Source: Candidatus Saccharimonadota bacterium
Lineage (GTDB): Bacteria; Patescibacteriota; Saccharimonadia; Saccharimonadales; Saccharimonadaceae
Assembly: GCA_017510835.1 (NCBI GenBank)
Contig: JAFWLZ010000028.1
Location: forward strand, 1 to 45,513
Reading direction: 5' to 3'
DNA length: 45,513 nucleotides
In this document: in pieces, positions 15,397 through 18,131 of the stretch
Layout of the letters: each line of letters opens with the position of its first letter
Numbering within the stretch: the first letter of the stretch is position 1
The notes under the pieces: generated by a model
Databases searched by the model: none
What the model was told of the DNA's origin: nothing
The model's input: only the letters and a program-made list of their open reading frames with translations
Program-made: the position numbers and the translations under genes

Positions 15397-16104
15397 CTAT
15401 ACACTGTCAGTTTTTATTATCTTAGATCCAGAATGCTCAATCATAAACGCTTCTAAATCATTCGAGGACATAGCATAGGCGTATTTAGAGCCATATTTCT
15501 CATTCATATAATCTAGTCGACTCATATTTTTTGCATCAACCTCAGGACATTCCCTTTGATAATAATCACCGTCGCCAATCGCTATGAAATATGTATTTGC
15601 AAGAGTAGATTTCGATGCATTTATTAAAAACGCAGTTAAGTCATTTGACTGGTTATCCTGCGCGCCGCCATTCGCCTCAGTATGCTTATGTGCCGCATAA
15701 TACATACAGTCTTCAAATCTCCAGCAAAAATCAATAGATTTCGTTAATCCGTGAGAAGCCCCACTGCCCTTTCTCACAATTCCGTCATTACAAATATATA
15801 AAGCGTTTCTCCCTCCAGCAGGTAGTGGGCAAAAATCAAATACGCCAGTCATAGTTTTTATAAAGTCAGCTGCAACTCTCTGATGCAAAGATTGCTTTCT
15901 AGGATCCTTAGCAAACTGGTTTGCAAAAATATTATCAGATAGTATTTTATGTTCTATATACTTAATCGGTAAATCAAATCGCTCCGAATAATTGCGTATT
16001 TTTAACCACATATCTTCATTTTTCGATAAAACCGCCTCCCTGACCTCTGATATGTTCTCTTCTAAAGCTTTCCTAAATGGACCTTCAAAATCAATTTTCC
16101 TCAT
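15397..16104 (-). CDS. Putative type II restriction endonuclease
   Basis: 235 residues overlapping the end of a DNA adenine methyltransferase gene by 14 bases. That arrangement, with the partner enzyme, is the main reason for the call. The most conserved-looking segment is residues 125-155: an Asp-Phe pair at 125-126, Glu131, then 'KHTEANGGAQDNQSNDL' (139-155), an acidic/Gln-rich patch of a kind seen in some PD-(D/E)xK restriction enzymes. I cannot assign a recognition specificity or prove the catalytic residues. The N-terminal half is helical ('FRKALEENISEVREAVL'). There is no membrane segment. Expression depends on the methyltransferase upstream, whose own start is irregular. Confidence 0.6.
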   Translation of the reverse strand: MRKIDFEGPFRKALEENISEVREAVLSKNEDMWLKIRNYSERFDLPIKYIEHKILSDNIFANQFAKDPRKQSLHQRVAADFIKTMTGVFDFCPLPAGGRNALYICNDGIVRKGSGASHGLTKSIDFCWRFEDCMYYAAHKHTEANGGAQDNQSNDLTAFLINASKSTLANTYFIAIGDGDYYQRECPEVDAKNMSRLDYMNEKYGSKYAYAMSSNDLEAFMIEHSGSKIIKTDSV

Positions 16105-17098
16105 TTTTACTCATCTCCTTCGCAATTTCGAAAATTGCCAAATTCATTATTCGACGAGCAGTAGCAAAATCTAATCTTCGACGATATAACCCATCCACTC
16201 TAAGTCCTTTAAACGAAGCCATAAAGACATCTTTCGTATCTTTTCTATATTTCTTTAAGATGTCGTTGCAACATTCAGTAAATCTTCCCAAATTAATACC
16301 ATCAGGAAGACCCCCAACTCTCGTAATAGACCTGGAAGTGTTTTTGATTTCCTTTTTTGGTATTAGATCCCCATCCCCAAAATATATTGAGTTTCCGCGC
16401 GTATTATCAACGCACCATATTCCGACTTCCCCATCTGGATCATTAAATTTCCAAGAAATTCCTAACACGTCTTTTACATCACCTTCAGATAATTCAGAAA
16501 AAGATCCTAGAAGTTCATTCATCCGATATATATCAAACGATTTCGGTGCCTTCTTCGCCGGAACAAACAATGCCAGGCATACAGGACACTCCGTATCAGA
16601 AAACATCTTACAAGTTAGAGAGATGACCGAATGAAGCCTCTCGTGAAACAAGCCAGACGTTATAAAAGTCTCAGGAATAATCGCCGCAACATATGGCGTA
16701 TTTTTCAACATTACATCTAAACTAAGCTTGTATAAATCATCGTATTCTGTATCTGGATAATCTAAGCCTCTTCTAGTTGCAGAATTTTTACTCAAGTATG
16801 GAGGATTAGTAATAGCAACTTTGAAGCCCTTAGGAAAATTTTTTATAGTGTCCTTCTGCTCTATCTCAAATTCAGGAAAAACATTTTCACCTGGCTCCAA
16901 ATCGAAACAAGCCCATCTCGATTCAGAAATTACATCATCCTCTATGATCATTCTAGGAATATTATTTGCACCAGCAAAAGGTTCCAGAATAACTGTATCA
17001 TTATCTACTCCGACCTCCTCGAGCCACTTGTAAAAACCGACCGTTTCAAAAGGATTTGCGATAGTATAGTATTGTCCATAAAGACGTTTTGAGTTCGT
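16091..17098 (-). CDS. DNA adenine-N6 methyltransferase of a type II R-M system, non-ATG start
   Basis: The first ATG (16951) would give 286 residues and lose essential motifs. The frame is open for 49 further codons upstream and encodes 'RLYGQYYTIANPF' (motif X region) and 'ILEPFAGANNIPR' (motif I, S-adenosylmethionine binding). With the downstream 'AITNPPYLSK' (motif IV, residues about 96-105) this gives the X-I-IV order of gamma-class N6-adenine methyltransferases. No ATG, GTG or TTG lies in frame before motif X. AGGAGG at 17103-17108 is followed 4 bases later by ACG at 17098, so I take ACG as the start (335 residues). The frame is closed by TAG 15 bases further up. ACG may be a rare start, an off-state mutation, or a sequencing error. 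The endonuclease gene overlaps the 3' end. Confidence 0.7.
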   Translation of the reverse strand, partial: TNSKRLYGQYYTIANPFETVGFYKWLEEVGVDNDTVILEPFAGANNIPRMIIEDDVISESRWACFDLEPGENVFPEFEIEQKDTIKNFPKGFKVAITNPPYLSKNSATRRGLDYPDTEYDDLYKLSLDVMLKNTPYVAAIIPETFITSGLFHERLHSVISLTCKMFSDTECPVCLALFVPAKKAPKSFDIYRMNELLGSFSELSEGDVKDVLGISWKFNDPDGEVGIWCVDNTRGNSIYFGDGDLIPKKEIKNTSRSITRVGGLPDGINLGRFTECCNDILKKYRKDTKDVFMASFKGLRVDGLYRRRLDFATARRIMNLAIFEIAKEMSKNEEN

Positions 17099-17123
17099 GG
17101 CGCCTCCTAACCCCTAACGCCAC
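17097..17123 (-). promoter_or_regulatory. Hairpin enclosing the methyltransferase ribosome-binding site
   Basis: The perfect inverted repeat GTGGCG (17118-17123 on the minus strand) / CGCCAC (17097-17102) brackets a 15-base loop containing TTAGGGG and the AGGAGG Shine-Dalgarno. The 3' arm includes the first two bases of the ACG start. Folding would occlude the start site. Confidence 0.65.
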
Positions 17124-17150
17124 AAAAGAAAAGACACCGTTGCCGGTGTC
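17124..17150 (-). terminator. Second terminator-like hairpin upstream of the R-M operon
   Basis: GACACC/GGTGTC stem with loop GGCAAC, followed on the minus strand by TTTTCTTTT. It uses the same stem sequence as the terminator 35 bases upstream. Any transcript reaching the methyltransferase from upstream must read through it. Confidence 0.65.
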
Positions 17151-17162
17151 GGATATTCATAT

Positions 17163-17188
17163 AAAAAACAGGACACCGCGCGGGTGTC
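17163..17188 (-). terminator. Intrinsic terminator of structured RNA
   Basis: GACACC/GGTGTC stem with loop CGCGC, then CTG and six T on the minus strand (17163-17168). It directly abuts the 3' arm of the long closing stem of the predicted RNA. Confidence 0.8.
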
Positions 17189-17329
17189 TAAACCAAATCG
17201 CACCTAGACCATCACTTGCGCAATGCTCCAGAATGTTAAGCGCGATGCCCTGATTAATACTCTCGAGCAAGACGCAAACTGTGCGATTTACATTTGCAGC
17301 TAGGTGCGATAATTAAAATTGGTTTAGAC
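17163..17329 (-). ncRNA. Predicted 167-base structured RNA upstream of R-M operon
   Basis: A minus-strand transcript from about 17329 (7 bases after TATAAT) to the terminator at 17163. Its first bases TCTAAACCAA (17319-17328) pair with TTGGTTTAGA (17187-17196), and ATCGCACCTAG (17300-17310) pairs with CTAGGTGCGAT (17197-17207). This gives a 21-bp closing stem with an 8-base one-sided bulge. Inside, GCAAA/TTTGC and TGCTC/GAGCA can form two arms of a junction. A second copy of AAATCGCAC within the first arm can pair perfectly with GTGCGATTT of the closing stem, so two exclusive folds exist. There is no open reading frame of note. It does not resemble SRP RNA, tmRNA or RNase P RNA to me; a 6S-like rod or a cis-acting leader are both possible. 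Confidence 0.6.
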
Positions 17330-17335
17330 AATTCT

Positions 17336-17341
17336 ATTATA
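17336..17341 (-). promoter_or_regulatory. -10 element of structured RNA
   Basis: TATAAT on the minus strand. The predicted +1 G at 17329 is immediately followed by the first base of the long closing stem. No convincing -35 is visible. Confidence 0.6.
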
Positions 17342-17451
17342 ACATCTACGCCACCGAATGAGCACAATTATTATGCACTCTTTTCAAAAATAGTCAAAAA
17401 ACTCAAATCACCTCTGTTATTCATCGTTTTACAAGCCCTCCTCTCCCCCGA

Positions 17452-17457
17452 TATAAT
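17452..17457 (+). promoter_or_regulatory. -10 element of PD-(D/E)xK nuclease gene, leaderless arrangement
   Basis: TATAAT followed by 6 bases and the ATG at 17464. It diverges from the RNA promoter at 17336-17341, leaving about 110 bases between them. Confidence 0.65.
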
Positions 17458-17463
17458 ATACTT

Positions 17464-17916
17464 ATGGTTAAAACCAAAATCATACTACAGCCAAAGAAAC
17501 ATTTTCTCGATCGGTATTTTCATACCGACACAAAAGACTATATTTTTGGCCATTCTCAGCTATATTCATCAGAGATATTCGCACTCGGCGCAATCGCCGA
17601 AGCCTTTCGTCCGCATACAATAGTAAAAATCCCAGAAGTACACTATCCTTGGAAAATGAAAACGCCAGATTTTCTAGTTGATGGAATCAAATACGAAGTT
17701 AAGGCGCCTTTAGTTTTCAGGAGTATTCGCTTTCTAACTCAAAAAGCGGAAACACAATTAAAGACACCTGACGGTTTTTTAGTTATGGAATTAATGAATA
17801 TCCAAAATGTGCCACTCTGCACTTCTCTTCAATACGCCTATAATTATTTCATTAAGCGGAAACTTAAAAATTTCATCATTATGAACCGAGGCGACATTCT
17901 TTACTCTACTCGCTAA
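17464..17916 (+). CDS. Free-standing PD-(D/E)xK nuclease (CdiA_C-like)
   Basis: 150 residues. Residues 66-80 read 'KTPDFLVDGIKYEVK': Pro68-Asp69, then Glu78-Val-Lys80 after an 8-residue spacer, the textbook PD-(D/E)xK active site. The surrounding layout (an N-terminal helix pair at 33-52, the motif, then 'KAETQLKTPDGFLVMELMN' forming the next helix and strand) resembles the nuclease toxin domains at the C-terminus of CdiA-type contact-dependent inhibition proteins. Here it is a complete gene with its own promoter, no secretion module and no obvious protein antidote beside it. The flanks hold two predicted non-coding RNAs and an R-M operon. Alternatives are a defence nuclease or a domesticated toxin fragment. 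Fold confidence is good; role confidence is low. Confidence 0.7.
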   Translation: MVKTKIILQPKKHFLDRYFHTDTKDYIFGHSQLYSSEIFALGAIAEAFRPHTIVKIPEVHYPWKMKTPDFLVDGIKYEVKAPLVFRSIRFLTQKAETQLKTPDGFLVMELMNIQNVPLCTSLQYAYNYFIKRKLKNFIIMNRGDILYSTR

Positions 17917-17985: not shown

Positions 17986-18017
17986 AAACAAAAAATATAC
18001 TCCTACTTTCGTAGGAG
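17986..18017 (-). terminator. Terminator of the ~110-base RNA
   Basis: CTCCTAC (18000-18006) pairs with GTAGGAG (18011-18017) around a GAAA loop, followed on the minus strand by TATATTTTTT. Confidence 0.75.
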
Positions 18018-18098
18018 GACGCGGGTATTCCCGAAAATCATCCGCGCATAATCGTACGGACCCTCTCCTGAGGTAAGTCCTGGTCTCCCAGAACCTAC
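17986..18098 (-). ncRNA. Predicted ~110-base structured RNA with consensus promoter
   Basis: Minus-strand unit with a TTGACG-17-TATAAT promoter. The 5' part forms a 14-bp hairpin (GAGGTAGGTTCTGG pairing with CCAGGACTTACCTC, closed by a GAGA tetraloop, with two G-U pairs). A middle section contains CGGG/CCCG or a longer CGCGG/CCGCG stem. The 3' end is the CTCCTAC/GTAGGAG terminator. No coding frame of note is present. The promoter's -35 lies in the last codons of the ABC ATPase gene. No known RNA family is recognised. Confidence 0.6.
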
Positions 18099-18102
18099 CT
18101 CA

Positions 18103-18131
18103 ATTATACCTTTCTCCCCTCTTTACGTCAA
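18103..18131 (-). promoter_or_regulatory. Consensus-like promoter of the ~110-base RNA
   Basis: TTGACG at 18126-18131 and TATAAT at 18103-18108 on the minus strand, 17 bases apart. This is one of the two best sigma70-type promoters in the window. It is placed over the stop codon region of the upstream ABC ATPase gene. Confidence 0.8.

Follow-up and report, generated by a model that had tools for sequence, protein, structure and literature searches.

The tRNase toxin domain CdiA-CT II of Burkholderia pseudomallei 1026b (Protein Data Bank (PDB) chain 4g6v; Pfam family CdiA_C, PF18451), a nuclease acting on transfer RNA (tRNA), forms the C-terminus of a large secreted CdiA carrier in a contact-dependent inhibition (CDI) system together with CdiB and CdiI. 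Homologous domains of CdiA_C type occur among the MuF polymorphic toxins of temperate phages, for which a survey ascribed immunity to small downstream open reading frames (ORFs) (PMC5576092). In type III toxin-antitoxin (TA) systems (ToxIN, CptIN and TenpIN) a ribonuclease toxin with a ToxN/Kid-like fold is held by a small structured RNA, encoded upstream as a repeat array under one promoter with a terminator between RNA and toxin (PMC5086642). The stretch analysed here, termed the window, comprises 45,513 nucleotides (nt) of contig JAFWLZ010000028.1 from an 834-kb Candidatus Saccharimonadota genome (G000), and was compared with a set of 200 relative genomes of Candidatus Saccharibacteria. It contains a 150-amino-acid (aa) ORF that we read, leaning only slightly to this side, as a stand-alone ribonuclease of CdiA_C type deriving from mobile modules with a hairpin-RNA antidote. 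The gene and its promoter are as follows.

17464..17916, plus strand: stand-alone PD-(D/E)XK protein with a divergent, predicted CdiA_C-type tRNase fold; 150 aa, ATG start, catalytic set E37, D69, E78 and K80
17428..17457, plus strand: nuclease promoter TTTACA-18-TATAAT (-35 at 17428-17433, -10 at 17452-17457), giving a predicted leaderless or nearly leaderless mRNA; kept in the relative genome G018

The preliminary description of this locus had pointed to an intact PD...ExK site, a leaderless promoter and a free-standing gene with no protein antidote in view, and all three observations held. The active site reads ...KTPD69FLVDGIKYE78VK80... (PD-X8-EVK), the Glu that is invariant in the family is retained as E37, and all four residues align with invariant family columns to give the PD-(D/E)XK catalytic set. 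The TATAAT of the promoter ends 6 nt 5' of the ATG, without a Shine-Dalgarno sequence, and no protein antidote is adjacent to the gene. PADLOC and NCBIfam scans of the ORF gave no match, nor were close relatives of the protein found in collections of genome contigs, viral contigs and plasmids. Among the 200 relative genomes only one, G018, encodes a close relative (51% aa identity), which lies at the same site beside ppa and gapdh. A chance ORF is excluded because this ortholog keeps the active site, both protein ends and the promoter.

The resemblance to CdiA C-terminal toxins that had been suggested is real but remote. Against Pfam CdiA_C the window protein scored 17.9 bits, below the curated cut-off of 26.6, whereas its canonical relatives score above it; alignment of the window and G018 pair to the family profile with hhalign gave 96% (E 3.8e-9). 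A structure model of the family (predicted local distance difference test, pLDDT, 93.3) had a single significant PDB match, 4g6v_A, the CdiA-CT of Bp1026b (E 1.7e-7, prob 1.0), a chain also found with the family sequence profile (E 3e-4). From these comparisons the window protein would be a remote, divergent member of the CdiA_C/CdiA-CT(Bp1026b) tRNase superfamily. The core fold and the PD...E-x-K site are common to the family and CdiA-CT II; however, the family genes stand alone, encode 125–150 aa rather than the C-terminus of a secreted CdiA, and have an RNA neighbour instead of a CdiI-like protein. The window gene is likewise a single 150-aa gene with neither a secreted CdiA carrier nor CdiB or CdiI as neighbours.

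Canonical members of the family are numerous among the relatives. CdiA_C matches were present in 49 of the 200 genomes, mostly as single genes of ~125–160 aa, with up to 12 stand-alone copies in Saccharibacteria genomes of ~0.7 Mb. Any one protein neighbour is common to at most 4 of 76 loci, and the protein partner elsewhere that would have spoken against the preliminary description was thus not seen. The distribution is patchy and crosses phyla, with CdiA_C genes and their RNA also found in the isolate Lactococcus termiticola (NZ_BFFO01000002) and in metagenome bins of Coriobacteriales, Clostridia and Lachnospiraceae. Two units in G042 share 545 nt at 97.6% identity, from -71 of the ORF to the RNA terminator (-71..+473), and in G006, G042 and G031 common flanks enclose different ORFs; units thus duplicate and swap within genomes. 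At three loci (L009, L011 and L062) the cassettes have a common downstream flank with a tRNA/transfer-messenger RNA-like 3' fragment, GGGGTTCGACTCCCGTTTGCTCCA, which suggests that they sit at the attachment site of an integrative element.

The usual neighbour of these genes is an RNA. Downstream of most CdiA_C stop codons a -10 box lies within a few nt, followed by a hairpin of ~45 nt with a T-run, oriented in tandem or convergently to the gene. The hairpin is not simply the terminator of the gene, because it also occurs convergently, on the other strand and with its own promoter (L107, L114, L115 and a locus in G100). A covariance model (R1) built from five sequences gave 29 matches (E<=10) in 702 kb, the five seeds among them, and by coordinates all of these adjoin a CdiA_C ORF on either strand. 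Within the hairpin, 95.2% of cells are paired; double changes number 80, whereas shuffles gave 26.8 and slid controls no more than 15. The 36 matches (E <= 0.1) to a second RNA class (R2) all lie beside CdiA_C ORFs; the outer stem of the R2 model is one column out of register, so that most of the score comes from the inner stem and the sequence. In scans of the 200 whole genomes, 10 of 12 R1 and 17 of 27 R2 matches adjoin a CdiA_C gene or remnant. A model-free rule (promoter, hairpin and T-run) placed the RNA beside 60 of 73 CdiA_C genes compared with 120 of 458 control genes (p = 6e-20).

The swapping of units (97.6% identity in G042; common flanks around different ORFs in G006, G042 and G031) and the patchy, cross-phylum distribution would also suit a small mobile element, in which the nuclease would act as a selfish mobility or homing enzyme and the hairpin RNAs would mark the ends, terminate transcription or regulate. 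We regard this as improbable. An element end or a terminator would not require a promoter of its own, yet the RNA has one and is found in both orientations; the nearest relative of solved structure is a tRNase toxin; and the same layout recurs in head operons of phages, in which the nuclease forms part of a capsid toxin carrier by fusion.

The phage genes carry the same arrangement of toxin and RNA. MuF head proteins of Streptococcus phages contain the same toxin domain and include the nearest phage relatives of the window protein, and in G380 a domain of the window type is itself fused to a MuF protein. All six phage MuF-CdiA_C genes examined (6/6) face a convergent promoter (17-nt spacing) and a hairpin RNA that ends in or near the last codons of the toxin. 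The phage toxins differ from the family genes in that their domain is part of a head protein rather than stand-alone. The convergent RNA gene seen here for the CdiA_C kind contrasts with the small downstream immunity ORFs described for MuF toxins (PMC5576092). In the open-access papers that we searched, neither CdiA_C nor MuF toxins were reported to have an RNA antitoxin.

In the system that we propose, the window-type nuclease would be a stand-alone toxin-type ribonuclease, most likely a tRNase, and one of many carried in mobile one-gene modules. The antidote in such modules would be a short hairpin RNA, for which a strong promoter lies next to the toxin gene. This RNA would inhibit the nuclease by binding it, possibly serving as a decoy for the tRNA stem-loop that is cut, and a cell that lost the module would be exposed to the stable toxin, with addiction, competition or abortive infection as the outcome. 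Transcription, toxicity, the tRNA target and direct neutralisation by the RNA are what we infer for the family. That the hairpin mimics an anticodon loop is only an idea; the loop motif UGNA was part of the search pattern and its frequency is therefore no evidence, and in RNA classes D and E the decoy-related motif is not clearly present. Type III TA systems are similar in this proposed logic, in which a small structured RNA restrains a ribonuclease toxin. The toxin fold, the RNA form and the gene order differ (PMC5086642): the family has the PD-(D/E)XK fold rather than that of ToxN/Kid, and in place of an upstream repeat array it has one hairpin RNA, which lies downstream of the toxin gene or convergent with it and has a separate promoter.

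A broader proposal, on which our belief and doubt are evenly balanced, is a new TA class in which PD-(D/E)XK tRNases of CdiA-CT type are held by tRNA-mimicking hairpin RNAs. Such a class would comprise solo cassettes in Saccharibacteria, Firmicutes and Actinobacteria and would provide RNA immunity for phage MuF toxins, with the window gene as a diverged member that relies on a different RNA or none. If the RNA is the antidote, this would add a second, unrelated fold to the few RNA-neutralised toxins, suggest how cells tolerate stand-alone polymorphic toxins when no immunity protein is present, and account for the presence of up to a dozen such nucleases in 0.7-Mb epibiont genomes. The proposed system is directly testable with isolate sequences from Lactococcus termiticola and Streptococcus phages.

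For the window gene itself the case is less complete. The preliminary suggestion of an RNA-controlled toxin has good support at the level of the family; for this gene, a divergent and fast-evolving member, RNA control is no more than plausible. Several observations weigh against the reading that we lean towards. The standard adjacent hairpin RNA is absent from both the window gene and its G018 ortholog, that is, neither has a covarying hairpin with its own promoter within ~100 nt of the stop codon, and the R1 and R2 models found no match in the window. The protein lacks the Q and DxR residues conserved in the family. Its own structure model is weak (pLDDT 58.6), and although 4g6v is the top fold match (prob 0.97, E 0.033, marginal), this match is not independent because family sequences made up most of the alignment behind the model. 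Orphan hairpin RNAs without a toxin also exist, two of them in the window genome. These two are tandem class-B hairpin RNAs (L193 and L206; G000:C15 20877-20920 and 21169-21212) with no toxin gene adjacent; similar orphans were seen in G096 (L194) and G106 (L185).

The missing RNA and the loss of Q and DxR would be expected of a member in decay or domesticated, one whose RNA partner is gone and no longer needed, leaving an orphan nuclease at a ppa/gapdh hotspot of defence-cassette exchange. Consistent with this, a canonical CdiA_C member with its RNA occupies the same site in G033, and DNA identity between G000 and G018 is 59.5% for the nuclease compared with 89% for ppa and 87.5% for gapdh. 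Between the same two genomes RNA1, upstream of the gene, is identical over ~195 nt (99% over 253); the nuclease is therefore fast-evolving, and RNA1 has been held or recently transferred. The window genome also contains a second CdiA_C copy (L044, G000:C63 5759-5980), which is N-truncated, lacks the PD motif and still has a hairpin 3' of it; it looks like a decayed toxin whose RNA was retained. However, in both species the ORF and a good promoter persist, as do the catalytic residues and the two ends of the protein, and codon position 3 has changed more than positions 1 and 2 (0.53 vs 0.34), so that the gene is still under coding constraint. We therefore consider an orphan nuclease doubtful, if a serious contender.

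For an RNA-held toxin at this locus, the flanking RNA genes are the candidates. The location of the nuclease between two minus-strand RNA genes, as had been described, was confirmed, and both RNAs fold strongly (z = -6.6 for RNA1, 17125-17340; z = -5.7 for RNA2, 17990-18104). Neither has a match in Rfam. The downstream RNA is encoded by the following features.

17990..18098, minus strand: RNA2, ~110 nt, structured, convergent with the nuclease; terminator at 17990-18017
18103..18131, minus strand: RNA2 promoter TTGACG-17-TATAAT, near-consensus; its -35 overlaps the last codons of an ABC-transporter gene

RNA2 resembles the RNAs of convergent family members in its orientation and near-consensus promoter, and its near end lies ~74 nt past the nuclease stop codon; it belongs to another sequence class than the family hairpin. 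By position it is the most plausible candidate for the RNA partner of the window gene. Also to be set against an RNA-held toxin here, RNA2 occurs only in the window genome and G018 has nothing in its place; it may belong to an ABC-transporter insertion that the window carries at this point relative to G018. In RNA2 an AGGAG can either stay unpaired or pair with a CUCCU in the terminator stem of the same RNA, so that RNA2 might alternate between two folds as a switch.

On the other side of the gene, the following features were identified.

17124..17334, minus strand: RNA1, closing stem GUCUAAACC/GGUUUAGAC, two terminators (17163-17188 and 17124-17150) and a -10 at 17336-17341
17360..17380, no strand assigned: imperfect palindrome GAGCACAATTATTATGCACTC in the interval that separates the divergent promoters of RNA1 and the nuclease

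The promoter of RNA1 is an extended -10, TGT-TATAAT. With its strong fold, its promoter divergent from that of the nuclease and the palindrome between them, which from its sequence only would be operator-like, RNA1 could form a divergent RNA-toxin pair with a common operator region and act as the antitoxin; the ortholog occurs in G018 only, and the identity of RNA1 over ~195 nt there fits such a pair. Homologs of RNA1 in eight other genomes (G006, G019, G131, G051, G223, G162, G278 and G047), however, precede methyltransferase, membrane-protein or ATPase genes, several lie near serine recombinases and none is next to a CdiA_C gene. Moreover, perfect RNA identity beside a 51%-identical protein speaks against co-evolving partners, and the antitoxin role is, in our estimation, quite unlikely. 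The conserved RNA-nuclease-RNA order that had been envisaged was accordingly not found, RNA2 being confined to the window genome and RNA1 homologs preceding other genes elsewhere.

Because these homologs precede other genes on mobile elements, RNA1 is likely a leader or small RNA of the neighbouring restriction-modification (R-M) operon, judged by sequence context, and not the partner of the nuclease. The RNA1 family (17097-17334 in the window; L086-L095, L161-L165 and L169) is ~130-190 nt long with a core GGGCAUCRCGC, a possible pseudoknot, and a terminator followed by a ribosome-binding site, and is patchily distributed across Saccharibacteria families; it may represent a leader RNA of mobile elements that has yet to be described. 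The shape of RNA1 had suggested 6S RNA, an assignment ruled out by the patchy distribution, the leader-like arrangement and the lack of an Rfam match.

The adjoining operon and the hairpin at its edge comprise three features.

16091..17113, minus strand: Eco57I-type DNA methyltransferase frame, Pfam 25.3 bits, at the cut-off; first ATG at 16951, true start presumably upstream
15397..16104, minus strand: ORF of 235 aa that overlaps the methyltransferase frame; putative restriction partner without a match to any family
17097..17123, minus strand: conserved hairpin GTGGCGTTAGGGGTTAGGAGGCGCCAC after RNA1, at the left edge of the G000/G018 homology; also after RNA1 homologs in G006 and G019

The R-M operon of the preliminary description is retained for its methylase, an Eco57I match at the Pfam cut-off, but its restriction enzyme is a putative role for the unmatched 235-aa ORF. 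That the operon adjoins the nuclease, and that the PD-(D/E)XK fold is common among restriction enzymes, would be in keeping with a defence nuclease or a part of the R-M system. The nuclease is on the opposite strand with its own promoter, its nearest fold is a CDI tRNase and not a restriction enzyme, and other family members are not regularly beside R-M genes. The earlier suggestion of a defence nuclease thus gained no support, PADLOC being empty, and such a role appears very improbable. The hairpin GTGGCGTTAGGGGTTAGGAGGCGCCAC is putatively att-like or bears a ribosome-binding site, and, lying at a sharp homology edge, may be a recombination site at which R-M cassettes are exchanged.
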